From Winogradskyella tangerina (GTDB lineage Bacteria; Bacteroidota; Bacteroidia; Flavobacteriales; Flavobacteriaceae), in contig NZ_QERF01000010.1 of assembly GCF_003260205.1 (NCBI RefSeq), positions 1 through 64,000 on the forward strand: a stretch of DNA of 64,000 nt, written 5' to 3'. The number at the start of each line of letters is the position of its first letter. Position 1 is the stretch's first letter. Shown here one piece after another: positions 2,356 through 46,567 of the stretch. The translations under genes were made by a program, and so were the position numbers. Below the pieces are notes generated by a model. It searched no databases. It saw only the letters and a program-made list of their open reading frames with translations, and was not told the origin of the DNA.

Positions 2356-2572
2356 TTTTGAATTGTTTTTTGATTATTAATGATTTGTAAAGCTCTGCTG
2401 AAAAAACAACAATAAAAATCTAAAATGAGTAAACTACTATTGTGAATGAGTATGTAATTTCAATATGTTAGCCAACGCGTGAATTTCTAGTAAAAATCGG
2501 CTCTGAAATGTGCTAAGTCATTTTTTGAAATGAAATAAAGTATGTAGTTTAGGACAATTAATTGAAGGCGAA

Positions 2573-4765
2573 TTGAAAGCATTTAGACTTTATATATTAT
2601 TAATTTGTGTTATTGGACTGTCAGGTTTAATAGAAGCACAGGATAAAAACACATCAGGAAGAAGCAAACTCGAGCGCAGTACAGAGGATGTGTATTTTAC
2701 AATTAGGGGTACTGTTTACGACAAGAAGACTTATGAAGCAGTACCAAAAGTTAGTATTCAGGTTAATGGAAGCAAATACACCACTTCAGATAGCAATGGT
2801 AAATTTTCAGTGCGTGCCAGAGTTGGTGATGAGCTCATCATAACGCATAGCTCCTTTGATCCTATATACCATATTGTTGAAAGTAATGACCGTATTTATA
2901 TCGAAGTTCAGCAAGAGCAGTTTAATAAATTCAAAACTTCAAGATCTTTTGAAAGTCGAAAAGTTTTCAATAGGCACATTGATTCTGCGGATTATTATTT
3001 GAAAAAGGACGCCGAAAAAAGTATAAAATTTGTAGGTGATGCACTAAACGTGAATACTTCAACCGTACAGAGTGGTGAAGCTCACGAGCTTTTAGGTGAT
3101 ATTTATATCTATTGGAAACAATATGATTTGGCCATAACGGCCTTCAAAATTAGCCTTCAGAATTACAAGACCAATTCAGCGCGACTTAAACTTGCAAACG
3201 CATACCTTAAGAATGACGACTTCGAAAAAAGTATTCAAACTTACAGCGAAATAGATGAGAAAACGCTCTCTAACTATGAAAAAACAATGCTTTATGAAGG
3301 TATGGGTGATGCCTACCTTGAAGCGAAAAATTTTGATGAGGCGGTAGCATCTTATGAAAAAGGGCTGTCGGTAGCAAAAGAACATTTAATCACGCCAAAA
3401 ATCACTGATCTCAATTCAAAAATTGCGCAGGCCTATAATTTTCAAGGAAACATTCAAAAGGCAAAAGGATTTTTTGATAGCTCGCTAGATCTGGCGACCA
3501 AAGAAAACAAAAAGCGTGCGGTAGAAGAGCAGATTAAGGTCGCGGAATTTAATAGTGCTATTGAAGATTACGACAGTGAAATAGAACTCAGAAAACAAGC
3601 ACTTGAAAGTATTGAGGACATTAAATTAGATTCGGTTATTCCTAATGAAAGTGCACTAACACCTCAGAAACAAAACTATAAATTAGGTAATGCATATCTC
3701 TTAAATAATGACCTTGAAAATGCTATTCCGTCGTTCAGAAAGAGTATAGAAGAGGCCGATAAAAATGCCGATCTCGATGTGAAAAAAGATGCTACGCGTA
3801 AACTTTCTGAGGCGCTTATTGATGCAGGAAATATTGAAGAAGGCCGAATATGGCTCGATGAATACAAGAAGACGGTCGACGAATTGTATGCTAAGAAAAT
3901 ACAAGAAATATCTCGTGCTGCTCATTTCAGTCGAAGTATTGCAGAACAGCAAAACAGGATTACATCCTTAGAGAGTGACAGACAATTATCTTTAAAAACT
4001 TATGAATTAACCGAGGAACAAAATAAGCGTCAGAAATTAATTATTTATTCACTGGTTGGTGGATTGGTGCTGTTTCTCATTACCGGATTTATGATGTTTA
4101 AGTACATCAGGCAGCAACGTTTTGCAAATAATCTTCTGGCGTTGAAATCGCTTCGAAGTCAGATGAATCCTCATTTTATTTTCAACGCATTGAATTCGGT
4201 AAATAGCTTTATAGCCACGAATGATGAGCGAACAGCCAATAAGTATTTATCTGATTTTTCACATTTGATGCGTTCTGTCTTAGAGAATAGTGAAGAAGAT
4301 TTCATTCCGTTAAAGAAGGAAATGGAGTTGCTCGAGTTGTATACAAAACTAGAACACTTTAGGTTTCAAGATAAGTTTGAATATTCTATAAATATCGATG
4401 ATAAGATCAATGTTGAAGAGTTTTTAATCCCTCCAATGTTGCTGCAACCCTATATCGAAAATGCGGTTTGGCATGGGTTGCGTTATAAAGCGGAGAAGGG
4501 TCATTTAAATATCTCGGTCAATTCAAAATCGAAGAATGAAATTGAGATCATTGTTACTGATGACGGAATTGGCAGACAGCGTTCAAAAGCCCTTAAAACC
4601 TCTAATCAGAAGAAGCAAAAATCTAAAGGAATGGACAATATAAAACAACGCGTTTCCATTCTTAATGAAATGTATAAAGATAAGGTTGATGTTAGTATTG
4701 CTGACTTCAGACCTAACGAAGAAGATACAGGAACAAAAGTAGTGGTGACATTAAAAAAAGTTTGA
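2573..4765 (+). CDS. LytS-type sensor histidine kinase with carboxypeptidase-regulatory-like and TPR domains
   Basis: The 730-residue membrane kinase has these parts in order: signal peptide (to about 23), a carboxypeptidase-regulatory-like beta-sandwich (about 44-110), TPR repeats (about 135-430), coiled coil, one membrane helix (about 489-509), a His_kinase domain with NPHFIFN (phospho-acceptor His534) and a C-terminal ATPase domain with DDGIGRQR. The sensor half would lie in the periplasm. The start is TTG: an in-frame stop lies at 2531, no ATG follows before the signal peptide, and TTG gives a good one. One base separates it from the LytTR regulator gene, which it presumably phosphorylates. 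The ligand is unknown. Confidence 0.88.
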   Translation: MKAFRLYILLICVIGLSGLIEAQDKNTSGRSKLERSTEDVYFTIRGTVYDKKTYEAVPKVSIQVNGSKYTTSDSNGKFSVRARVGDELIITHSSFDPIYHIVESNDRIYIEVQQEQFNKFKTSRSFESRKVFNRHIDSADYYLKKDAEKSIKFVGDALNVNTSTVQSGEAHELLGDIYIYWKQYDLAITAFKISLQNYKTNSARLKLANAYLKNDDFEKSIQTYSEIDEKTLSNYEKTMLYEGMGDAYLEAKNFDEAVASYEKGLSVAKEHLITPKITDLNSKIAQAYNFQGNIQKAKGFFDSSLDLATKENKKRAVEEQIKVAEFNSAIEDYDSEIELRKQALESIEDIKLDSVIPNESALTPQKQNYKLGNAYLLNNDLENAIPSFRKSIEEADKNADLDVKKDATRKLSEALIDAGNIEEGRIWLDEYKKTVDELYAKKIQEISRAAHFSRSIAEQQNRITSLESDRQLSLKTYELTEEQNKRQKLIIYSLVGGLVLFLITGFMMFKYIRQQRFANNLLALKSLRSQMNPHFIFNALNSVNSFIATNDERTANKYLSDFSHLMRSVLENSEEDFIPLKKEMELLELYTKLEHFRFQDKFEYSINIDDKINVEEFLIPPMLLQPYIENAVWHGLRYKAEKGHLNISVNSKSKNEIEIIVTDDGIGRQRSKALKTSNQKKQKSKGMDNIKQRVSILNEMYKDKVDVSIADFRPNEEDTGTKVVVTLKKV

Positions 4766-36756: not shown

Positions 36757-36828
36757 GCGAAAGTAGCTCAGGGGTAGAGCATCACCTTGCCAAGGTGAGG
36801 GTCGCGGGTTCAAATCCCGTCTTTCGCT
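36757..36828 (+). tRNA. tRNA-Gly (GCC)
   Basis: The acceptor stem GCGAAAG/CTTTCGC is perfect. The anticodon arm TCACC-TTGCCAA-GGTGA gives GCC, and the T-arm is GCGGG-TTCAAAT-CCCGT type. CCA is not encoded. Its last 20 bases plus one recur 133 bases downstream. Confidence 0.97.
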
Positions 36829-36941
36829 CATGTTTCAGACCTCCATTAATATTAAGAGGTTTGCTTGAAAAAGTGAAAATTGTGGTGCTGACGATTTCAA
36901 AATGAAATGTCAGAATGCTGATAAGCGAAGCTTCGTCAGTA

Positions 36942-36962
36942 TTCAAATCCCGTCTTTCGCTC
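36942..36962 (+). repeat. Duplicate of the tRNA-Gly 3' end
   Basis: These 21 bases are identical to 36809-36829, the T-loop to 3' end of tRNA-Gly. The copy has no upstream tRNA body. The 133-base offset encloses self-complementary sequence (CTGACGA 36888-36894 pairs with TCGTCAG 36933-36939). It looks like an attachment-site scar or partial duplication. Confidence 0.85.
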
Positions 36963-37003: not shown

Positions 37004-37088
37004 GCTGAAGTGGTGGAATTGGTAGACACGTTGGACTTAAAATCCAATGGCCATTATGGCCGTGCGGGTTCAAGTCCCGCCTTCAGTA
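37004..37088 (+). tRNA. tRNA-Leu (TAA), integration target
   Basis: The acceptor stem GCTGAAG/CTTCAGT has a G-T first pair. The anticodon arm TTGGA-CTTAAAA-TCCAA gives TAA, a long variable arm (TGGCCATTATGGCCG) marks a class II tRNA, and the T-arm is intact. Its 3' end recurs at 46296-46317, so the element inserted here and left the tRNA whole. Confidence 0.96.
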
Positions 37089-37089
37089 C
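37068..37089 (+). repeat. Left attachment repeat (attL)
   Basis: This is the T-loop and acceptor 3' part of tRNA-Leu. It aligns to 46296-46317 with only G37074/T46302 different. Confidence 0.85.
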
Positions 37090-37094
37090 TGTGT

Positions 37095-37137
37095 AAAACC
37101 GTAATTCATTGATTATTCAATGGTTACGGTTTTTTTT
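37095..37137 (+). terminator. Terminator after tRNA-Leu, supplied by the element
   Basis: AAAACCGTAA pairs with TTACGGTTTT around an inner stem CATTGA/TCAATG, followed by a T-run. It lies inside the element, six bases after attL. Confidence 0.85.
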
Positions 37138-37154
37138 GTGCTCAAAAAGCCAGT

Positions 37155-37163
37155 ATTTAGTCA
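37155..37163 (+). other. ATTTAGTCA site near attL (putative arm-type site)
   Basis: This nonamer, followed by AAAAA, also occurs in the integrase promoter near attR (46167-46175, with a variant CTAGTCA-AAAAA after it). Shared sites at both ends suggest integrase or excisionase binding. Confidence 0.4.
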
Positions 37164-37184
37164 AAAATATAATATAAATCAATT

Positions 37185-37433
37185 ATGAGTGAAATGTTTA
37201 AGTATAATAACTGCGGTAATAAGCAAGAAGAGTCGAAACCTGGTAAACAATTAATTAAAGGAATTGATGAAAAAACGCGTAAACTTGTTGAAGCAAAAAT
37301 GAGAAAACAAATAGAAGACAAAAAACAAGAAGCAAAAATAGCAAAGGACGAGGCCAGAATATTCATTGAAGAAACTGATTGGTCTAAAGTAGATGTTAAA
37401 AAATACCTATTGAGTTTGTTGGATATTATTTAG
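37185..37433 (+). CDS. Small charged helical protein of unknown function
   Basis: The 82-residue product is rich in Lys and Glu from about 20 to 65, predicted to be a long helix, and has a Leu/Ile-rich C-terminus (YLLSLLDII). Two Asn-Cys-Gly-type residues occur early (NNCGN). I recognise no family. It is the first gene inside attL and may belong with the two small open frames that follow. Confidence 0.55.
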   Translation: MSEMFKYNNCGNKQEESKPGKQLIKGIDEKTRKLVEAKMRKQIEDKKQEAKIAKDEARIFIEETDWSKVDVKKYLLSLLDII

Positions 37434-37475
37434 AATTAAATACAATAATTATCATTAATCATAAACTATTTCAAT

Positions 37476-37571
37476 ATGAACAAGGAAGAATACATAAAAA
37501 AAATGAGCCCGATATTAGAAAGACGTGAGCAGCTCCTCAGTGAAATCAAGAAAAATAACATGGTGATATAA
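37476..37571 (+). CDS. Tiny helical protein, paralogue of the next one
   Basis: This 31-residue frame starts MNKEEYIKK. Its core ILERREQLLSEIKKNN resembles ILIRRKALLKEIKDKG of the frame at 37660. The shared pattern ILxRRxxLLxEIK, the A-rich leader and the tandem arrangement support coding, but the size makes this tentative. Confidence 0.4.
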   Translation: MNKEEYIKKMSPILERREQLLSEIKKNNMVI

Positions 37572-37659
37572 CTTGGCGAAATAGAAAAACCATATCCTTG
37601 CAATATAAATTATTTGAAATGAGATAGAATTTCAGGTAAATCAATAAGTAATTAATACT

Positions 37660-37809
37660 ATGGAATTTAAAATTAGTTCAACAGATTTTCTTAAAGAGAA
37701 AAATGAGATATTAATTAGGCGAAAAGCTTTATTAAAAGAAATTAAGGATAAAGGGATACAAGTTCGTTTAAATCTTGTAGCTCCGGAACATAGGCAAGTA
37801 AAAGACTAA
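37660..37809 (+). CDS. Tiny helical protein, paralogue of the previous one
   Basis: This 49-residue frame begins MEFKISSTDF, carries the ILIRRKALLKEIKDKG core shared with the preceding frame, and ends with a basic tail. It may be a short helical dimeriser. No family is recognised. Confidence 0.42.
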   Translation: MEFKISSTDFLKEKNEILIRRKALLKEIKDKGIQVRLNLVAPEHRQVKD

Positions 37810-38098
37810 CTTGGATTTTTGAGATCCTGAAGTCTACTATTTAAATGAAGTACTTCAAGATTCAGGTTGATTTCAGATCCTTGCAAATCATATATCTCAT
37901 TTCACTCAAATAAAATTGACTCAATCAAATTAATGCGCTAATAATTTTCACTTTGGAACCAAAAGATATCCTTTTACAATCCACTAAATGTGTCAAAGAT
38001 ACGTTTTGAAAGCTGTACAATTATAACTATACTATTATTAAATTCATAGACTAGTAATTATTGTTAAAATCCATGATTAACTACTAGTATATAATACT

Positions 38099-38132
38099 AA
38101 AAGCGCCTCAATTGTGACGTGCTTTTATTTTT
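38099..38132 (+). terminator. Intrinsic terminator
   Basis: AAAAGCGC pairs with GTGCTTTT (one G-T pair), followed by a T-rich run. It may end the small-gene transcript that starts near attL. Confidence 0.6.
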
Positions 38133-38254
38133 AGTAATATAAGTTAAATAGATTAATATTCACCAACCACTTTTTAGGATACTGAATTTCTTAGGTGTTG
38201 GATATAAGATTCTTGAGTAGATCATTTAGAATATATGTTAAAAATGTATAATTT

Positions 38255-38302
38255 TGTAATACAAATTGCAAAATAATTAAATAATAAATAATATGTATTA
38301 CA
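38255..38302. promoter_or_regulatory. Twin TGTAWTACA palindromes upstream of the RHH gene
   Basis: TGTAATACA (38255-38263) and TGTATTACA (38294-38302) are both perfect palindromes around a central base, 39 bases centre to centre. They precede the ribbon-helix-helix gene by 50-97 bases, where an autoregulator would bind. Confidence 0.45.
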
Positions 38303-38351
38303 TTTTTTTGTAAATTGCGTAAGACTAATTTATTAAAAGTAACCAATTACT

Positions 38352-38540
38352 ATGAATCAAGATTCTAAGGTCACCAAAAAAAAATTGAAGACTGAGTCAA
38401 AAACATTAAGATTAGAAGCTGAATTTGTCAGTGAAATCGAAACGCTAGCTGAAAGAAATTATCGAAATTTCAACAACATGGCAGAAACGTTGATGCGTAT
38501 TGGGATGCAACATTATCCTGGATTGGAATTAAGAACTTAA
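38352..38540 (+). CDS. Ribbon-helix-helix DNA-binding regulator
   Basis: The 62-residue basic protein has a predicted strand (SKTLRLEA) followed by two helices (EFVSEIETLAERNY and NFNNMAETLMRIGMQHY), the layout of Arc/CopG-type regulators. Such proteins bind DNA as dimers through the strand. Paired palindromes upstream suggest it controls itself. No toxin gene is adjacent, so an antitoxin role is not supported. Confidence 0.65.
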   Translation: MNQDSKVTKKKLKTESKTLRLEAEFVSEIETLAERNYRNFNNMAETLMRIGMQHYPGLELRT

Positions 38541-38652
38541 GAAAATAGGGTGCTAGGAATAGTGCCCTTTATTATGAAATGAAAACAAAATTAAGAAAGA
38601 TATTACATAAAAAAAGCCCTCATTTAAGAAGGCTTTATTTTAACAATATGTT

Positions 38653-38723
38653 GGGTACGTGTCCGAGTGGTTAGGTGGGTTCCTGCTAAGTTCCTTACGC
38701 CAGTTCGAATCTGGTCGTACCCT
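38653..38723 (+). tRNA. tRNA-Ser(GCT)-like gene without long variable arm
   Basis: A perfect 7-bp acceptor stem (GGGTACG/CGTACCC), a serine-type D region (GTCCGAGTGGTTAGG), anticodon loop CTGCTAA (GCT) and an intact T-arm (GCCAG-TTCGAAT-CTGGT) are present. The anticodon stem GGTTC/GTTCC has two T-T mismatches, and the class II variable arm is missing; the total is about 71 bases against nearly 90 for a normal tRNA-Ser. It is either a tRNA pseudogene or a deliberate tRNA mimic. Confidence 0.6.
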
Positions 38724-38729
38724 CAATCG

Positions 38730-38767
38730 AAAGGAATGGAATAAAATTTCATTCCTTTTGTTTTTTT
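38730..38767 (+). terminator. Intrinsic terminator after the tRNA-like gene
   Basis: AAAGGAATG (38730-38738) pairs with CATTCCTTT (38750-38758), followed by TTTTGTTTTTTT. Confidence 0.8.
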
Positions 38768-39587
38768 ATCCACTTCAAATTAACCAATTTTTTTTGGTTT
38801 TATTATCAATACAGTGTTAAATTTTACATTATTATGGTATTTTAACATTAAAATACGCTTATTATCGATTATTTAGAATGATTCTTATGTATTTGATATC
38901 ATTTAACACTTATTTCTCCTGATAGAATACAAAAATGATATCTATTTTGTTATGATTTACATTTAGTGTGAACTTATATTTTCTTACTCATAAAAGCATA
39001 TTGTTTAAACGTCACGATTAACGTAGGTTATGCGTTTAAAAAACATCTGTTGCGCTCAAAATAAATGCTGAAACCAATCAAAATGGGATCCTTATTAAGG
39101 TTTTGTACATGACATGGTACTAATTAAACGTAACACTAGCGTTTTGAATAAGTCCGTAAAGAGTCAATTATCCCCAATATGATTGTTTAGTGCATGTTTA
39201 ATGAATGATGTATGTATTTATTATGTTTATTGTGTGTAAAATAGATGTTGTCGAAGCAAATGAATCAAGATTAGAATTACGTTGTTTTAACGTTAAGATC
39301 AACCTAGAGCCAAAGACTGACAGATAAATTCCTATTGCTACAATGGGTGTTATCAGAAATTATTAAATACGTTATTCTTCGTTAGCTAATAGACATTTGC
39401 CAAAATTATTTTAACATTCGAACAACGTTAAGATTCGTGATAGTCTTGTGTTTGTAAATATTCAGGTCTATAATTTGATTTAATCTTAATTTCTTTTTAG
39501 TAATATTCTTAAATAATTATCAGGAAAAGAAAGAAGATAAATAAATCCATTAGCTCTTGAGAATATGTAAAATCGCAGGATAATAGT
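38768..39587. other. Gene-free stretch of about 820 bases
   Basis: It is AT-rich with no convincing frame on either strand. There are many short TTAACG/CGTTAA words; AACGTTAAGAT occurs near 39290 and again near 39425. A small AACCAA/TTGGTT hairpin lies at 38782-38799. It could hold an origin or binding sites, but nothing specific is shown. Confidence 0.5.
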
Positions 39588-40511
39588 TTATCCCTCTTCA
39601 AATTCTTTTATTGTTTTTCCTAAATTTGATTCTAAATAATCTTCACCGTTGGGGTAATATAATCTAACTTCCAATTTTAAATTATCAAAAACTTGAGGTA
39701 AGTCCATTGGATGAACGGTAAAGTCAATTCTCACAACGTTCAATAATTCATTAGGATAAATTGGAGAAAACCCATTAACACTTGCCTTAAATTTGTTATT
39801 ATCTATTCTAGTGAAATTGATCAAGCTGTTTGACTTATTTTTATGTTGTAAAACTCGCATACTTTTAGGAGAATTAATAAAATAAACATTTACTTTATAG
39901 TTTTCCTCCATTTTTTCTCCCTCATTATAAATGTCCACTTCAATTCCATATTGAATTTCTTCCTCATTTGCATTTTCTTTTGTTTTAGTAAGCGTCGTTT
40001 TATCTAAGACTAGCTTGGACCGAACTCTTCTTCCGTAAAGCTCACGTATTTCATACTCCTCCATCGCCACAGACTCAAAATTATATCTTTTATAGTACCT
40101 TTTATCTTTGCAAATGTGAGGAGCTTCAATACTTGAAGGAATTTGGACGACGTATATTGTTTTTTTTATTTCGTTTTGTTTTCGAATAGGAAATATTTTT
40201 AATCCAGGTATATTTCTATTAATGGTAGAACTTATGATTTGTTCTAACCATTCTTTTGTGAATTCATTCCCGTCTATAAAGGAAAATTTATGTGCTTTAT
40301 GATTCTTTTCCTCGATGCCATAAATAATTATACCACCATCAGAATTTGCAAATGCAGAAACATCTTTTGAAACTTCCTTTTTAATCGAATCTGTCTTAGA
40401 GAGTGCTCCAGCAGCTTTAAACTCAATATGTATGGATTCTTCAATTTCGTTAAATATAAAAGATTCAACGGTATTTATATCATATGTTTTTAATTTATGA
40501 AGCTCTGTCAT
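39588..40511 (-). CDS. AlbA_2 (Schlafen-core) domain protein
   Basis: The 307-residue soluble protein has an AlbA_2/Schlafen-type domain (about 18-160): ESIHIEFKAAG with Glu25 and Glu30 spaced as in the family, KDVSAFANSDGGIIIYGIEE and a late KRYNFESVAMEEYEIREL segment. The C-terminal half is a beta-rich domain I do not recognise. AlbA_2 proteins occur as regulators and in defence loci; Schlafen relatives in animals cut tRNA using an acidic triad. Nuclease activity here is speculation. It is the only evident cargo enzyme of the element and stands alone between long non-coding stretches. Confidence 0.75.
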   Translation of the reverse strand: MTELHKLKTYDINTVESFIFNEIEESIHIEFKAAGALSKTDSIKKEVSKDVSAFANSDGGIIIYGIEEKNHKAHKFSFIDGNEFTKEWLEQIISSTINRNIPGLKIFPIRKQNEIKKTIYVVQIPSSIEAPHICKDKRYYKRYNFESVAMEEYEIRELYGRRVRSKLVLDKTTLTKTKENANEEEIQYGIEVDIYNEGEKMEENYKVNVYFINSPKSMRVLQHKNKSNSLINFTRIDNNKFKASVNGFSPIYPNELLNVVRIDFTVHPMDLPQVFDNLKLEVRLYYPNGEDYLESNLGKTIKEFEEG

Positions 40512-40698
40512 TACAACAAAATTTTAAATTTCGTGAGCATAATACTTGTGATACTATTAGTCATGAATTATATCTAAATTACTCTCGAAATACGCATTAA
40601 AGATGTTCTTTTTACCCTTAAGAGCGTTTTTCAGGTTTGTTTTCGGCCTAACTTTTTGTATTTAAAAAAGTGAACATCATAAAAAGAGATTAAGAGTA

Positions 40699-40726
40699 GA
40701 AAGCACCTCTTAAGGGAAGTGCTTTC
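40699..40726. repeat. Hairpin GAAAGCAC / GTGCTTTC
   Basis: Perfect 8-bp arms enclose CTCTTAAGGGAA, which itself can partly pair. The word AGTGCTTTCG also occurs in the RNA candidate at 40940-40949. No T-run follows, so this is not a typical terminator. Confidence 0.6.
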
Positions 40727-40832
40727 GTTATCAAAAAGGGGTGCTATTAATTTTTATAAATTATCCAGCCTTAATCGAAGCTCTAAAGTTAAGAAATATT
40801 TGTTGTTTTTAATCAAATGTAAAGGAAGATAA

Positions 40833-40858
40833 TTGACGAATAAAATTCGGTATATTTG
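40833..40858 (+). promoter_or_regulatory. Promoter of the structured RNA candidate
   Basis: TATATTTG (40851-40858) fits the -7 consensus TAnnTTTG. TTG at 40833-40835 is 15 bases upstream, slightly short for a -33. Confidence 0.5.
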
Positions 40859-40863
40859 TAAAA

Positions 40864-40997
40864 TAGCAAGCGAGCTGACAATTTTATTAGCGGATGACTA
40901 ATGGTCTTTATAGAGAAAGTTTTAGTCGGTGTAAAAAGCAGTGCTTTCGCACTCTTGATGAACCTAATAACGTTTGAAGCCCACTTGCTTGTTTTTT
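40864..40997 (+). ncRNA. Candidate structured small RNA, about 134 nt
   Basis: It begins just after a -7 box and ends in a T-run (40992-40997). The ends pair: AGCAAG (40865-40870) with CTTGCT (40984-40989). Inside are a stem GACTAA / TTTAGTC (about 40896-40927) with an inner CTTT/AAAG helix, and a perfect tetraloop hairpin AGTGC-TTTC-GCACT (40940-40953). No frame crosses it convincingly. I cannot match it to a named RNA family. Confidence 0.45.
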
Positions 40998-41035
40998 GCA
41001 ACTATATAAGTTTGTGGTAAATTGTATATAGTTGC
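40998..41035. repeat. Perfect 11-bp inverted repeat
   Basis: GCAACTATATA (40998-41008) and TATATAGTTGC (41025-41035) flank a 16-base loop, directly after the RNA candidate's T-run. Confidence 0.7.
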
Positions 41036-41159
41036 CTTTAAATGCGTTAATGAGGTAAGTTTTGAAGTGCATTTAGTTAATCCTTGGTTTTCAACCTTCA
41101 ATGGTGGTATTAAATTGCTCGACCATTTTATGAAATGAAAAAAAACTGGTCAGATTTAT

Positions 41160-42116
41160 TTAAAAATTAGGCAAATCTCGAAAAAAGTCTTCGATATCCT
41201 TACCATAAAGACCTTCCTTTTTTAATTCCTCGTTCGATCGACCGGCAGTCATATCCCATAGGTGGGCATTTATGCGTATTTTATGCATTTCATTTATTTT
41301 GTTTTTCATAATGTCAACGGCCTCATTTTCAAGGTCCGGAATAATTAAAACGGTATGACCGGCTAAGCATTTTAGCTTTACTGAGTTAAGTCCGTTCTTG
41401 CCGCCGTATGCCAACCAGGTATATCTAGGCAATAAAATGGACCCAACAATAGCGGTTTTTTCACTTTCAACTAAAACAATTAATTGTTTGCCCTTCAGAC
41501 TATCAACTATTAAGTGTTCACCGAAAAGACAAGAATAATAACCGTTTTTATTCGTGTAAATATGATTGAATTTTTCTGTTCTTCTTCCATTCTTTTGGTA
41601 GTAAGAAAGTTTACACTTTTGAACCTTTAAATTTTTGTTTATTTCCCAGAACATTGTAGCACCATCGTTGTACGTTCCTATCAGGTATTCTTCTTTAACA
41701 TTGTTCGTTTTGTGGTCACCGTATGTTTTACGAAGGTAGAGTAGTAAATTATTCTCTGGCTTTATGATGGTTGAATCTATAACTGTCTGTTCTTTGATGA
41801 ATCTTTGAGACGGTTCTGCTGCATCTTGTGTTTTACGGTTTTTAAGATATGTTAGAGGTGTAAAGTCAGTAAGTTTTTCATACCTTCTTAATGCCTCGTT
41901 ATAGCTGAAACGATTTCCGTTTTCATCCTCGTAAATGGCAGGAGGTAAGGTCGCTTTGCCACAACTATGGCAATACCCAAATTGTTCAGGTAGACCAACA
42001 TAATTGACAAATTTTAGGCTCCCACTTGATCCGCGGTTTCTTTTACCGCAACATGGTGTTATCAAATTTGGATTTCTCTTGCTTGAAAAATTTAGATCAA
42101 TAATAATTCTTTTCAT
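41160..42116 (-). CDS. Primase-like protein with zinc finger and Toprim-like domain
   Basis: The 318-residue product has an N-terminal zinc-finger-like region (TPCCGKRNRG ... YCHSCGK) of the type found at the head of bacterial primases. A Toprim-like domain follows (about 210-290) with VLVESEKTAIVGS and VLIIPDLENEA. This layout matches DUF6371-type proteins of Bacteroidota mobile elements. It likely primes or initiates element replication. It lies downstream of iteron-like repeats and the DUF3987 gene, with which it probably works. Confidence 0.75.
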   Translation of the reverse strand: MKRIIIDLNFSSKRNPNLITPCCGKRNRGSSGSLKFVNYVGLPEQFGYCHSCGKATLPPAIYEDENGNRFSYNEALRRYEKLTDFTPLTYLKNRKTQDAAEPSQRFIKEQTVIDSTIIKPENNLLLYLRKTYGDHKTNNVKEEYLIGTYNDGATMFWEINKNLKVQKCKLSYYQKNGRRTEKFNHIYTNKNGYYSCLFGEHLIVDSLKGKQLIVLVESEKTAIVGSILLPRYTWLAYGGKNGLNSVKLKCLAGHTVLIIPDLENEAVDIMKNKINEMHKIRINAHLWDMTAGRSNEELKKEGLYGKDIEDFFRDLPNF

Positions 42117-42139
42117 TTCTAATTAGACTTAGGACCCCT

Positions 42140-42285
42140 GGAAACTGGAAACTGGAAACTTTTCAATAAGATGCCCTTATTTACAGTGGTTAGCAACCTC
42201 TAATCAAAAACTCTATGTTTCCTTTAAAAGTTCAATCGTACACTTTTTTAAATGTTTTGGAAACTTTTTGATTAGATAGGAAACT
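42140..42285. repeat. Five GGAAACT repeats (iteron-like)
   Basis: Three exact tandem copies occur at 42140-42160, then copies at 42259-42265 and 42279-42285 (20 bases apart). An inverted copy, AGTTTCC, lies at 42332-42338. They fall between two replication-type genes, a usual place for an origin or operator. Confidence 0.6.
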
Positions 42286-42329
42286 CTTTCTTTTCGATAA
42301 ATAGTAAGGGTTTTGAGCGTTTTTATAAG

Positions 42330-43715
42330 TTAGTTTCCTGTTTCGTCAGGGGATAAATACTTTTTAAAGAGTTTAGAAACTTGTCCCTTGCTTATTTTTA
42401 GAATCGATGTTATTACGGTTTGAGCGTTATTTACATTATTTTTTGATGCCCTGGTAATTAATTCTTTCCTGAATTCGTTTTCATTAATCTTATCTGGTTT
42501 TTGCTCTAGAGTTAATTTGAAATTGGTGTAATAAAACTCAATTATTAAGATTGATAGTTTTACTGTTTGTTTATTTATGGGGTTGTTGAAAGTTGAAGTT
42601 TTGGCGTTTTTTATTAAATGGATCAATAAAATCATTTTGTGAATATTGATTTCCATTTTTGAAGTATAGGCCTTTAGAATTTTTGGTAGCTTTTCTTTTC
42701 TCAAAATTAAATCTTGGGCATAAATCATAAGCTCTTTTTCTGCCTCATTCGAATAGACTATTCTTTCCTTTTCACTTGCCCTCTCAAGTCGAAACCTCTG
42801 ATCTAGAAGGTTTATTAATCCCAACTTATAATTTTCGTATACTATTGGATTGAGGTTTTCTCCAGATAATAGAGTGTTTTTTGTTAATTTATTAGTGAAG
42901 AGTATACGGTCAATAAAACCACTTTCTAAGTTGCCGTTTGAGAATAGTTTAGGTATAAACTCAGTTTGTATTGCTCCTAGTAATGTTGGGTATGATTGTT
43001 CGATTCTAAAGCTATCTGTAGTTTTTCTTGAAATGTCTATGTGAGAATTGGTATTTCCCTGTAAAAAAAATACCCGCCATTCCGCACCTTGATTACTGTT
43101 ATTATCAGCCATTTTTGCAATTAATCCCATCAATTCATCTATATAAATACCGATTGAATATGGGTTGTTGTAATGACTATATATCGCTGATTCTATAGTA
43201 GCGTTTTGAAGAAGCAGTTGTTTTCTTTTAACCTCTAAATTTGAGTCGTTGTTAACACTTTCTCTTAGTTTTTGTGTATCTGATCTAAAATCGTAATAAG
43301 ATCTGTCGTCATACTTTTTTAACGGCAATGTAGCAATATTCATCGGCTCAGATTTAGTGTCACCCCTATCTGAAATTATTGCGAAATATAGATTTGCATA
43401 ATTTGTATAGTTGAGCACATGCGTATAGAATGCAAGCCCAGACGCATTACTATACGCAAACAAAATTGAGCTAAACATAAAACCTTTCGGTATTCTTTTA
43501 TGCTTAAAATTTTCGTTTATAAATTCCTGCAGTTCTGAAGGGAGAGACAGAAGGATCGATTCTAACTGGTTCAAGGCTTTTTGACTATCTTCGATTATTA
43601 TTTCATCAATATTTTGTTCAATCTCGGTTAATGTTGAAAATTCTTTCTTATCTTCAGTTTGATTTGTGGCTAAATCATTGGTGCTGTTTTCAGCACCTTT
43701 TTTCTTTTCTGACAT
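42330..43715 (-). CDS. DUF3987 protein (ATPase-like, replication module)
   Basis: The 461-residue product matches the DUF3987 family: after a low-complexity N-terminus come NLYFAIISDRGDTKSEP (P-loop position, Lys121, Ser122) and a Walker B-like IGIYIDELMG (Asp193, Glu194). The P-loop lacks the usual Gly before Lys (GDTKS), so ATP binding may be altered. The last 60 residues look like a helix-turn-helix. The family is typical of Bacteroidota plasmids and islands and is thought to help replication. It sits three bases after the excisionase-like gene. Confidence 0.75.
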   Translation of the reverse strand: MSEKKKGAENSTNDLATNQTEDKKEFSTLTEIEQNIDEIIIEDSQKALNQLESILLSLPSELQEFINENFKHKRIPKGFMFSSILFAYSNASGLAFYTHVLNYTNYANLYFAIISDRGDTKSEPMNIATLPLKKYDDRSYYDFRSDTQKLRESVNNDSNLEVKRKQLLLQNATIESAIYSHYNNPYSIGIYIDELMGLIAKMADNNSNQGAEWRVFFLQGNTNSHIDISRKTTDSFRIEQSYPTLLGAIQTEFIPKLFSNGNLESGFIDRILFTNKLTKNTLLSGENLNPIVYENYKLGLINLLDQRFRLERASEKERIVYSNEAEKELMIYAQDLILRKEKLPKILKAYTSKMEINIHKMILLIHLIKNAKTSTFNNPINKQTVKLSILIIEFYYTNFKLTLEQKPDKINENEFRKELITRASKNNVNNAQTVITSILKISKGQVSKLFKKYLSPDETGN

Positions 43716-43718
43716 ACA

Positions 43719-43991
43719 CTAAGTGTTTAAGGCCTTTAATATTTCAGATTTAAGGTAATAGACTCGATTTCCTATTTTTTTTGAAGGCAACTTTCCTTTT
43801 TTAGTGTAATTCCATAGTGTGGACGTATTAATACTAAGAAATTCGCAGGTTTCTTCACGAGTGAAAAGCTGATCTTTAGTATCAGTATTATCAAGTTCTT
43901 TTTTAAAGTCCTCCAGCGCCTTTTTAACACTTTCAGATACAATAGAAGAGATTTCTGAAGGTGTGGTGTGGATAATTTTTATTTGGCTCAT
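43719..43991 (-). CDS. Excisionase-like helix-turn-helix protein
   Basis: The 90-residue product has a winged HTH_17/MerR-like domain at about 42-88: LFTREETCEFLSINTSTLWN then KGKLPSKKIGNRVYYLKSEI. Such small proteins often act as recombination directionality factors and regulators of integrative elements. Its start codon lies inside an inverted repeat (43987-44016). The DUF3987 gene follows immediately. Confidence 0.8.
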   Translation of the reverse strand: MSQIKIIHTTPSEISSIVSESVKKALEDFKKELDNTDTKDQLFTREETCEFLSINTSTLWNYTKKGKLPSKKIGNRVYYLKSEILKALNT

Positions 43992-44016
43992 AACTATTGT
44001 TTTTTATTGTTATGAG
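43987..44016. promoter_or_regulatory. Inverted repeat over the excisionase start
   Basis: CTCATAAC and GTTATGAG are perfect 8-base arms with a 14-base A/T-rich spacer. On the minus strand the start ATG is within one arm. It could be an operator or an mRNA hairpin limiting translation. Tandem AGGGATAAA (44029-44037 and 44040-44048) lies just upstream. Confidence 0.5.
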
Positions 44017-44074
44017 TACAAAAATTTCAGGGATAAATGAGGGATAAAATCCTTAAGCTAAAATTTGAATTGAT

Positions 44075-44893
44075 TTACTCCTTTTTAAATTTGACTTTTT
44101 GAAAATATTGATTTATTTGATCAATATTTTTTGGGTACTGCTGATGGTCAGGTTCATTTAAGCATATCTTGATATATCTTTCAATGGTACCTACATTATC
44201 TGTGTCAAAATCGATTAACTTCATTAACAATTTTGCAACAGTATTTGGGCTATTATTTTTTGTCAAATAAGATAATACTCCACTTTCTTTTAAATACCCC
44301 AATTTTTCTATCTTACTTAAGCTGTAATCAAGCGTAACAATTTCTTTGAAATTTCCCTTTTTATTGATTTCAATATTCAAAAGTTCTTGTTTAAGAATCT
44401 TGATTGCTTTTTTTATGTTTCTTTTAGCATCTATATGTGGGATTAATTGCAAAAACAGGAAATAATCGCAGCCCCAACCAAATTCATAGTCTGGAGTTAA
44501 ATCACGTATGTGTACAATCTCATTTTTGATACTATGTTTCAGCTTTCCGATGATTACTTTTAGATAATCCTCGTCTTCATATCCAGTCAATGGGTCGTTA
44601 TATTTAGACATATCTCTTAAAACGCATTTTACCAAGGTTTTGTAGTTGGCGCCGATAAAGAAATAATCTTCTTCTACCGAAAGAACTTGCAGTTTTCTAT
44701 ATGTCTGCCTTATTTCATCTACAATGGTTTTATCCATTTGGTCATAAAGTTTTATCGGATTTTTGTATAATAATTCAAATTTCTCGGGGTCATCCTTCAT
44801 ATTACCATATTCGTCCAGTTCAACACCAACTAGTTTAGACACGGCTGCGTATCCTAAGTTATCTAACTTTTGGTCCAATTCTTTAGCTGTCAT
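44075..44893 (-). CDS. Integrase-linked protein of unknown function
   Basis: The 272-residue soluble, mostly helical protein has no recognised motif. It starts two bases after the integrase stop, so the two are co-transcribed. Genes in this position in Bacteroidota islands are common but undefined. Its middle (GCDYFLFLQLIPHIDAKRNI) is hydrophobic enough for a folded core. I give no function. Confidence 0.65.
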   Translation of the reverse strand: MTAKELDQKLDNLGYAAVSKLVGVELDEYGNMKDDPEKFELLYKNPIKLYDQMDKTIVDEIRQTYRKLQVLSVEEDYFFIGANYKTLVKCVLRDMSKYNDPLTGYEDEDYLKVIIGKLKHSIKNEIVHIRDLTPDYEFGWGCDYFLFLQLIPHIDAKRNIKKAIKILKQELLNIEINKKGNFKEIVTLDYSLSKIEKLGYLKESGVLSYLTKNNSPNTVAKLLMKLIDFDTDNVGTIERYIKICLNEPDHQQYPKNIDQINQYFQKVKFKKE

Positions 44894-44895
44894 AG

Positions 44896-46152
44896 TTAAT
44901 GTTTAAGAGATTTAAGCATTTCGCTGTATATAAGATTAGTGAAGTCTTCATCTGATTTTCCGATATATTTTAGAAATGTCCTTTCTTGGACATGGCCTGT
45001 AACCTTCATTATTAATGAGTTAGGCATTTCCCCATAGTAATTCGAAGCGAATGAACGACGACATACATGTCCAGATATCAGTTCATATTTTTTATAACTT
45101 CCCCCAATGTTTCTCTTGGTTGTCGCGTCGCGTTTATAATGTTTCAATTCTTCATCAATTCCACATAATTGGCAAAGGATTTTAACCTGTCGATTAAAAA
45201 CTTGTTTGGAAATTTTATATGGTAATCCATCTTTAATTAACTCTTCAGCTTTGGGGTTGAGTGGAATGTGTACGGTTTTATTAACCTTACGCTGCGTTAT
45301 TGTTAAAATTCTAAATTCTTGGTTATTTGATGTTTTAATGTCTTTTTCACTGATGCTAAGGAGATCATCCAATCTTTGACCCACTTCACATCCAAACAAT
45401 AACCATTTTCTAACATTGATTAAGCTCTTGTTATTAATGCTTTGGGTCTCTATTTGTTCAAGCTCCCTTCTGTTCAAAATGATTATTAGTTTAGGCCGGG
45501 GATCATTTAATCGTCTAAAATGTCTAACTTGTTGGTTAATGGTAACACCATGGCGTTCCGCTTCAAAGCATAAACTTTTAATATCACTGATTTTTTTGTT
45601 TGCGGTACTAACACTGTATTTCTGATCTTGAATTAACCAATCGACAAGTTGATTTAAATAATTACGGTCAATTGATTTTATAGAAATGTTTTTATTTCGA
45701 CTAAATTTTGATAGTACGACTTTTAGATTCTTATATGCTTTAATTCTATTCTTTGATAATCCTACAGATCCTTTTCCATTTTTCCTTGTATGAGCTGTTA
45801 GAATTATGTAGTCAATTATTCCAAATATAGTTTCGAATGGATTGTCATAGTTGGTTCGTTTAAAAAACAAGTTGATTTTAGATTCTAGCCAGTGTCCATC
45901 AATAATTTTACCAACTGTATTATCATTGTTGTACTCGTCTAGTACAAAACCCTCTAGCTTGAATAATTTAGACTTAAGCTCCTTAGTGGATTTGTCTTTG
46001 GTAATAGGGTAATTTGTTTTTTTACTCCAATTACGTGGATTGATGACTAATCCAGTTTTTCTTTTTATATTGAATTTTGATCCGTCGGAAAAACGGAGGT
46101 AAATTGGCGCTGAGTTATTTTTGCTTTGTAAATAATATTTTGTAGATGCCAT
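44896..46152 (-). CDS. Tyrosine recombinase / integrase
   Basis: The 418-residue product has an arm-binding N-terminal region, a SAM-like core-binding domain (about 105-210) and a catalytic domain. The active-site residues are visible: Arg260 (GCEVGQRLDD), Lys289, His362 and Arg365 (GHVCRRSF), His387 and the nucleophile Tyr396 (FLKYIG). It should integrate and excise the element at the tRNA-Leu site. It reads leftward from attR. Its promoter leaves only four bases before the ATG. Confidence 0.93.
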   Translation of the reverse strand: MASTKYYLQSKNNSAPIYLRFSDGSKFNIKRKTGLVINPRNWSKKTNYPITKDKSTKELKSKLFKLEGFVLDEYNNDNTVGKIIDGHWLESKINLFFKRTNYDNPFETIFGIIDYIILTAHTRKNGKGSVGLSKNRIKAYKNLKVVLSKFSRNKNISIKSIDRNYLNQLVDWLIQDQKYSVSTANKKISDIKSLCFEAERHGVTINQQVRHFRRLNDPRPKLIIILNRRELEQIETQSINNKSLINVRKWLLFGCEVGQRLDDLLSISEKDIKTSNNQEFRILTITQRKVNKTVHIPLNPKAEELIKDGLPYKISKQVFNRQVKILCQLCGIDEELKHYKRDATTKRNIGGSYKKYELISGHVCRRSFASNYYGEMPNSLIMKVTGHVQERTFLKYIGKSDEDFTNLIYSEMLKSLKH

Positions 46153-46156
46153 TACA

Positions 46157-46187
46157 CAAATATATTATTTAGTCATTATCTAGTCAA
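46157..46187 (-). promoter_or_regulatory. Integrase promoter with tandem 11-base repeats in the spacer
   Basis: On the minus strand TTG (46187-46185), a 20-base spacer and TATATTTG (46164-46157) match the consensus. The spacer is mostly two copies of TGACTARATAA (46186-46176 and 46175-46165). The -7 box ends four bases before the ATG, implying a leaderless mRNA. Confidence 0.6.
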
Positions 46188-46295
46188 AAAATTTGAAATT
46201 TAATACGATTTAATTAAATTTGTTGAAATCAATGATAGCATAAAAAGTTTATATATAGGTGTATAGGGTATTATTGGATTTATTCTAATCGTAAA

Positions 46296-46317
46296 GTTCA
46301 ATTCCCGCCTTCAGTAC
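46296..46317 (+). repeat. Right attachment repeat (attR)
   Basis: This 22-base copy of the tRNA-Leu 3' end has one mismatch, with no tRNA body upstream. Confidence 0.85.
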
Positions 46318-46322
46318 AGATG

Positions 46323-46353
46323 AAAAGCCAAAACGAAAGTTTTGGCTTTTTTT
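46323..46353 (+). terminator. Terminator beyond attR (original tRNA-Leu terminator)
   Basis: AAAAGCCAAAAC pairs with GTTTTGGCTTTT around a GAAA loop, followed by T's. It stands where the tRNA-Leu terminator would have been before insertion. Confidence 0.8.
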
Positions 46354-46567
46354 ATGCGCTAATCAGAATAAGTTCATTATCAGAAATTAATCGGTAATTA
46401 GTTTTTTTCTTGTGTCGATATTCTAACTCTCAATTTGTTTATTTAGCAATTTTATGTTTACAATAACACTACAAGACTTCTCAAAGTGCTTATATTTACT
46501 TACCTTAGTCACTTAACATGAATGTTGTGGTACTTTTTTTACAGCAACAGACATCAATTTGTGGTTA

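Follow-up and report, generated by a model that had tools for sequence, protein, structure and literature searches.

Phage-inducible chromosomal minimalist islands (PICMIs) of Vibrionaceae lack packaging genes, protect their host and ride virulent phages as concatemers (PMC10803314, Nat Commun 2024). According to the sections of that paper used here, a PICMI consists of an integrase gene (int), mostly an orphan gene that overlaps or abuts it (overlapping or contiguous in 25 of 35 subfamilies, with orphans of 13 families), alpA, in many cases an additional gene, and prim, and in the prototype the int-abutting orphan is required for excision. The search model given there, which combines PF00589 and other recombinases with PF05930/PF12728 and PF13148/PF19263, returned 135 hits in complete genomes, 67 of them in Vibrionaceae, where the mean size is 6.7 kb; the same sections report incomplete variants in other species, complete PICMIs only in Vibrio and never two in one genome, call integration at fis a hallmark and treat Vibrio hosts as characteristic. 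Here we analysed the first 64,000 nucleotides of Winogradskyella tangerina contig NZ_QERF01000010.1 (the window), which carry an integrative element of ~9.25 kb between 37068 and 46317. An earlier note on this DNA had proposed a compact tRNA-Leu element with replication genes and no transfer genes, perhaps a satellite or hitch-hiking replicon. This remains the best reading and can be sharpened, as gene order and families match PICMI and 28 of 32 host genomes lack a PF03432 relaxase: the evidence leans, though not heavily, towards a PICMI-like integrative satellite of Flavobacteriaceae, probably mobilised by a helper phage that we infer.

The element is an insertion into a once empty tRNA-Leu(taa) site, as indicated by empty loci in relatives and by the native terminator lying beyond 46317. 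The target tRNA (37004-37089, plus strand; ARAGORN, Rfam and empty-site alignment) has its 3' end restored by the element, and its last 22 nt (attachment repeat attL, 37068-37089, plus strand) recur as a direct repeat with one mismatch (21/22 identical) at the far end (attR, 46296-46317, plus strand), in agreement with the duplication of the tRNA end noted earlier. The tyrosine integrase gene (44896-46152, minus strand) likewise lies at one border, the one distant from tRNA-Leu, where it adjoins the right repeat copy. For the comparison with genomes lacking the insert that the note had called for, 20 loci were taken from 24 other same-genus genomes that matched in the search for relatives. Four were excluded: in G009, G014 and G023 the match falls at the end of a contig, and all matches of G015 are weak. 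Empty sites were found in 10 of these 20 loci (L026, L029-L034 and L036-L038), in which the propeller gene of the window's right flank stands no more than 600 bp behind mutS, tRNA-Gly and tRNA-Leu; the remaining 10 were without this arrangement within 600 bp. In the nine empty sites that were aligned (all except L033), the sequence after tRNA-Leu scored 36.5-59 against the window's right flank versus 14-23.5 against the DNA just inside the insert, which places the displaced native terminator at 46318-46357 (plus strand). The terminator-like hairpin now found 3' of tRNA-Leu (37095-37137, plus strand; read from the sequence) is unlike the post-tRNA-Leu sequence of the nine aligned relatives and is not the native one, having been supplied by the element. 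A tyrosine integrase, the tRNA 3' repeat at both ends and empty sites in relatives, the features of a tRNA-targeted integrative element, are thus all present.

The same tRNA-Leu looks like a busy integration site, because two other genomes carry insertions in it. In the nearest same-genus relative (G017, L024 714-17281), the same tRNA end borders an element of 16.5 kb, similar in plan to that of the window, with int, a 161-aa orphan and a helix-turn-helix (HTH) gene followed by ABC-3C, patatin and Mrr-NACHT genes, and in G016 a second copy of the tRNA-Leu 3' end (~57 bp, L042 18804-18860) lies 18 kb from the tRNA and marks another, larger insertion at the same site. Separately, an exact 21-nt copy of the tRNA-Gly 3' end was observed at 36942-36962, 133 bp downstream of that in tRNA-Gly itself (36757-36829), in the window and in G017 too; it is probably the scar of a former element in tRNA-Gly.

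Eight open reading frames (ORFs) of the element, all of at least 62 aa, were scanned against Pfam and PHROGs. On the minus strand, the integrase (PF00589, 4.2e-10; PF13102) is followed in order by a 272-aa orphan (44075-44893), an HTH_17 regulator of AlpA/excisionase type (43719-43991; PF12728, 1.5e-10, and PHROG excisionase families), a DUF3987 protein of replication helicase type (42330-43715; PF13148, 1.9e-27, and phrog_2373), a region of iterons, a DUF6371 protein (41160-42116; PF19898, 8.3e-38) and a Schlafen AlbA_2 cargo protein (39588-40511; PF04326, 6.7e-16). The excisionase-like gene and the single AlbA_2 cargo protein of the earlier note are therefore borne out by Pfam; of its two replication genes, described as DUF3987 and Toprim-type, the former stands, and the Pfam domain of the latter is DUF6371, a Toprim character being suggested by the conserved VESEKTA...PD motif in the alignment of this protein, which also has an N-terminal zinc-finger-like CC..C..C motif and may be a primase. 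The DUF3987 protein has a P-loop-like RGDxKS motif in which R116, G117 and K120 are invariant among 11 aligned sequences. Profile searches against PDB chains gave one weak match each for DUF3987 (E 0.02) and DUF6371 (E 0.4).

The element resembles PICMI, as far as the cited sections describe it, in several respects. Within 3.9 kb it has PF00589, PF12728 and PF13148 side by side, three families on which the PICMI search model is built, and in the PICMI order; the 272-aa orphan starts 2 bp after int, in the position of the PICMI iolg/icg gene; an AlpA-type HTH gene, an optional gene and a DUF3987-type prim follow in series; large non-coding stretches with tiny ORFs, the lack of capsid and packaging genes, host protection and small size (9.25 kb here and ~7.5 kb in a relative, versus the mean of 6.7 kb) complete the resemblance. 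The orphan itself gave a poor AlphaFold model (predicted local distance difference test score, pLDDT, 58.8), and the model of a 14-sequence orphan cluster (pLDDT 76.9) had no PDB match at E<=0.001 among the 44 listed; an assignment of the orphan as RteC-like was rejected, as Pfam supported it neither for the window protein nor for 10 relatives. Upstream of the HTH_17 gene, 43989-44047 contains an inverted repeat CATAAC...GTTATG and a doubled GGGATAAA, which on inspection of the sequence is a possible operator.

The core of int, orphan, HTH_17, DUF3987, iteron region and DUF6371 is common to a family that uses several sites, spans many genera and changes its cargo, with the iterons shared in part. 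At E<=1e-10, 19 of 299 genomes of the host's taxonomic family hold a DUF3987 relative, with at least 42% identity in 11 of them, the own genome included; at E<=1e-40, relatives were found in 2 of 395 genomes of a phylum sample, namely the own genome and one of its family. Among the other 67 same-genus genomes there was one relative, broken into two pieces (G005), a rarity that fits recent arrival or slow turnover. A pattern-based genome scan yielded 36 DUF3987 loci, 34 labelled Flavobacteriaceae and two labelled 'Flavobacteria' or 'Flavobacteriales' bacterium; several of them duplicate records among L063-L072, so that counts from these two sets should not be added up. In 29 of the 36, DUF3987 is preceded by an int that points the same way (split into two ORFs in L132), and no such int occurred within the stretch examined in the other 7. 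Directly after int came a gene of 287-690 aa in 27 of the 29, with no more than 25 bp between its start and the int stop codon in 22 of these cases (negative gaps may partly stem from the choice of start codon), and the order int, orphan, HTH, zero to two genes and DUF3987 held in 26 of 29 (exceptions L116, L141 and L142). DUF6371 followed DUF3987 in 32 of the 36 loci; it is fragmented in L142 and truncated at the edge of the contig in L125. Pairwise identity across genera was 37-65% for DUF3987 and 42-63% for DUF6371; the orphans are the fastest-changing part, 28 sequences with the window's included falling by BLASTP into clusters of 16, 4 and 3 plus five singletons. Two DUF3987 loci occurred in one genome in three cases (L108/L142, L113/L127 and L128/L131).

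The 213 bp between DUF3987 and DUF6371 (42117-42329) form a candidate replication origin, with iterons common to a minority of relatives. They hold five copies of AGTTTCC/GGAAACT out of six in the element and 14 in the whole window, and no heptamer was repeated as often in 1000 mononucleotide shuffles. At least three GTTTCC within 220 bp at the end of DUF3987 were found in 8 of the 36 loci (L109, L113, L116, L117, L119-L121 and L131), and an AGTTTCC cluster lies at the end of DUF3987 in G293. On the DUF3987 tree, whose root and several forks are weak and in which the window's own placement is unsupported, the 10 iteron rows need 2 changes versus a shuffled mean of 9.0. A triple AGTTTCC heptad was discarded as a phage marker: 12 IMG/VR stretches (G+C 49-66%) match it and none has int, HTH, DUF3987 or DUF6371 by profile, so the motif alone is not diagnostic.

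The search for the same gene set at other flavobacterial tRNA genes, also proposed in the note, found relatives at tRNA-Leu and tRNA-Asp, and together the empty sites and the large family with the same core uphold its view that the element integrates and carries genes for replication but none for transfer. Among 10 tRNA or tmRNA loci tested (two being the same record), 4 had 13-17 nt of the tRNA 3' half repeated exactly on the opposite side and 6 did not. The four elements so bounded by a tRNA repeat are at tRNA-Leu(caa) in G293 (~7.5 kb), Maribacter zhoushanensis (L121, ~14.5 kb, without DUF6371) and Aestuariibaculum suncheonense (L138, ~14.1 kb), and at tRNA-Asp in Polaribacter glomeratus (L131, ~12 kb). 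In 11 of the 36 loci mnmE lies upstream, and no convincing second copy of the mnmE end was found in the DNA examined at these 11.

Genes for restriction and other kinds of defence abound in the cargo across the family, which we count in favour of a satellite. Scanning the large cargo genes of three bounded elements revealed type I restriction-modification genes in both L131 and L138; those of L121 encode two D12 methylases, an AAA_5 protein and a further protein that matched no family. Broader tallies covered 146 of 197 downstream ORFs from 34 loci, in sets of 67 and 79, with L115 and L140 left out as near-copies of L114 and L110. By PADLOC and Pfam, type I and IIG restriction families lead, followed by Gabija, Septu, MADS and AriAB models, which overlap; some ORFs evidently belong to the chromosome or have no connection with defence (efflux, dehydrogenases), because element ends are undelimited in most loci. 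Ten single cargo proteins submitted to PADLOC gave 5 strong matches, 1 weak match and 4 without a match. In L117, a 547-aa ORF (2385-4028) that looks AlbA_2-like by eye stands among restriction-type genes near another family member.

How the element travels was approached through its transfer genes and its viral relatives. As the earlier note had read for the insert, neither a relaxase nor a capsid gene occurs among the eight scanned ORFs; in addition, the whole own genome has no PF03432 relaxase. The PF03432 search covered 32 whole genomes, comprising the own genome, G293 and the hosts of 33 of the 36 loci, and found no match in 28 of them, the own included; the remaining four gave six matches, none of them inside an element locus to judge by coordinates and, in the case of L117, also by its ORFs. 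With none of the eight ORFs matching PF03432, the element has no relaxase of its own of the kind that defines mobilisable and conjugative elements. A PF01076 search of the same 32 genomes also returned nothing, but its control was equally silent, so this null carries no weight. Capsid-carrying satellites of the cf-PICI type are defined by their own capsid and packaging genes. None of the eight ORFs matched capsid, terminase or portal families in PHROGs or Pfam, the sole structural label being a weak minor-tail PHROG match (E 0.0047) on a 62-aa Arc-like ORF.

A DUF6371 scan of IMG/VR yielded 67 contigs, at no more than 36% identity over at least 100 residues (42% over a 67-residue piece); by profile, 27 have an int-like ORF and one, the 39-kb contig L154, has a DUF3987-like ORF, which adjoins its DUF6371-like ORF and makes it the sole viral contig with both. 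In L144 (1-9826), int, HTH, an AAA_25 helicase and DUF6371 are followed by a 1446-aa tail tape measure gene, and the 6.6-kb contig L186 (289-5378) has int, a 266-aa orphan, HTH, an AAA_25 helicase and DUF6371. L144, L150 and L186 share the order of the window and a homologous DUF6371 (33%, 28% and 25% identity, respectively), L150 and L186 also having an orphan between int and HTH, whereas an AAA_25 (DnaB/RepA-like) helicase takes the place of DUF3987. Contigs of this kind, in which int and HTH precede an AAA_25 helicase and DUF6371, count in favour of a satellite. PLSDB gave two DUF3987 matches, both distant. MT836828.1, an unverified faecal 'Bacteriophage sp.' record with distant DUF3987 and DUF6371 genes and int-like ORFs, was not retained for lack of a clear boundary.

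The closest competing explanation is hitch-hiking on conjugation: an integrative element without a relaxase would contain an origin of transfer (oriT) and be mobilised by a relaxase and mating pore that a different element supplies. In Bacteroides thetaiotaomicron, according to the part of PMC10434189 used here, HTH, integrase, VirE and DUF3987 genes adjoin MobC and relaxase genes, and this region resembles the window in its series of tyrosine-type integrase, HTH and DUF3987 genes; moreover, the ~1.8 kb without sizeable ORFs (37434-38351 and 38725-39587) could hold an oriT. Unlike the Bacteroides region, however, the element has neither MobC nor relaxase, and DUF6371 follows instead. Since 28 of the host genomes lack a PF03432 relaxase, a resident conjugative helper is less likely, and no mobilisation family appeared among the Pfam families listed, 25 of the 97 and 25 of the 70 that the two cargo sets matched, so that we regard conjugative hitch-hiking as rather unlikely and less likely than phage mobilisation. 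A platform for defence genes that rarely moves and spreads without a helper of its own, through generalised transduction, gene transfer agents or natural transformation, would agree with the single broken relative in the genus and with the cargo that makes up much of the larger bounded elements. However, integrase, excisionase-type, helicase and primase frames are kept open across genera at the identities given above, which argues for selection on excision and replication and leaves a passive platform improbable. The related int, HTH, helicase and DUF6371 modules in IMG/VR, of which one adjoins a tape measure gene, would suit a prophage that has lost its structural genes; yet the compact plan recurs in 26 loci with varied cargo, and the four further bounded elements share the same core (L121 without DUF6371), which disfavours a degraded prophage and makes it very improbable.

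Several observations weigh against a phage-mobilised, PICMI-like satellite. No helper phage, circular form or packaged DNA of the element was seen; two IMG/VR scans contained no close DUF3987 relative, and L154 had no int-like ORF in the stretch examined; among 50,697 phage records there was no near match to the whole element, nor any near match to 37434-39587 in sensitive mode. The window's own AlbA_2 protein was one of the four without a PADLOC match, and the iteron cluster is not present in 28 of the 36 loci. Compared with PICMIs as the cited sections present them, the sites are tRNA-Leu, tRNA-Asp or beside mnmE rather than fis, the hosts are Flavobacteriaceae rather than Vibrio, an extra DUF6371 gene follows DUF3987, and up to two DUF3987 loci occur per genome versus never two PICMIs. 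Because it has neither the fis site nor the host family that the authors consider characteristic, we do not file the element as a PICMI; it follows the same plan and most likely works alike. Titles and abstracts on Bacteroidota satellites and phage-inducible chromosomal islands, on DUF6371, on DUF3987 with integrase and on PICMI contained no description of this family, although members are possible among the 135 PICMI hits; PMC12324425, in the part used, concerns another marine element.

As a phage-mobilised satellite, the element would respond to infection by, or induction of, a helper phage, upon which the HTH_17 protein, with the orphan, would turn the integrase to excision. The excised circle would then replicate from the iteron region by means of the DUF3987 helicase and the DUF6371 primase and, making neither capsid nor relaxase, would leave in helper particles, possibly as a headful concatemer like PICMI, before integrating into a tRNA gene of a new cell. 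The cargo would guard the host, through AlbA_2 here and through restriction and other defence systems elsewhere.

The remainder of the element agrees with the tiny proteins and abundant non-coding DNA of the earlier note, the ~1.8 kb mentioned above being free of sizeable ORFs apart from a tRNA-Ser. The plus strand encodes an 82-aa ORF without a family in Pfam or PHROGs (37185-37433), a 62-aa candidate repressor of the Arc-like (ribbon-helix-helix) type (38352-38540; PHROG 3431, 5.8e-6) and a 72-nt tRNA-Ser(gct) (38653-38724; ARAGORN, Rfam and alignment); a 49-aa ORF (37660-37809, plus strand) and a 31-aa ORF (37476-37571) were read by eye. This tRNA-Ser is supernumerary and probably defective: it has no variable arm and two T.T mismatches in the anticodon stem, and a normal 86-nt tRNA-Ser(gct) is encoded elsewhere in the genome (G000:C9). 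Its DNA has no second copy in the own genome beyond 18-nt matches, and a viral origin was set aside, as an exact search of IMG/VR with 26 nt of it found nothing; most likely it is a decayed tRNA carried along.

Flavobacteriaceae include abundant marine polymer degraders. We give even chances to a wider reading, in which minimal phage satellites built on the PICMI plan plus DUF6371, with several attachment sites and a partly shared iteron origin, occur throughout this family as a main vehicle of defence systems and are carried by phages unrecognised as helpers. If the element is phage-mobilised, the minimal satellite plan would exist in a second phylum, beyond Vibrio, and the signature of int, orphan, HTH_17, DUF3987 and DUF6371 would explain the movement of many restriction and defence islands of Flavobacteriaceae. 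It also becomes possible to test by what means islands with neither relaxase nor capsid genes are carried where the genome has no PF03432 relaxase.

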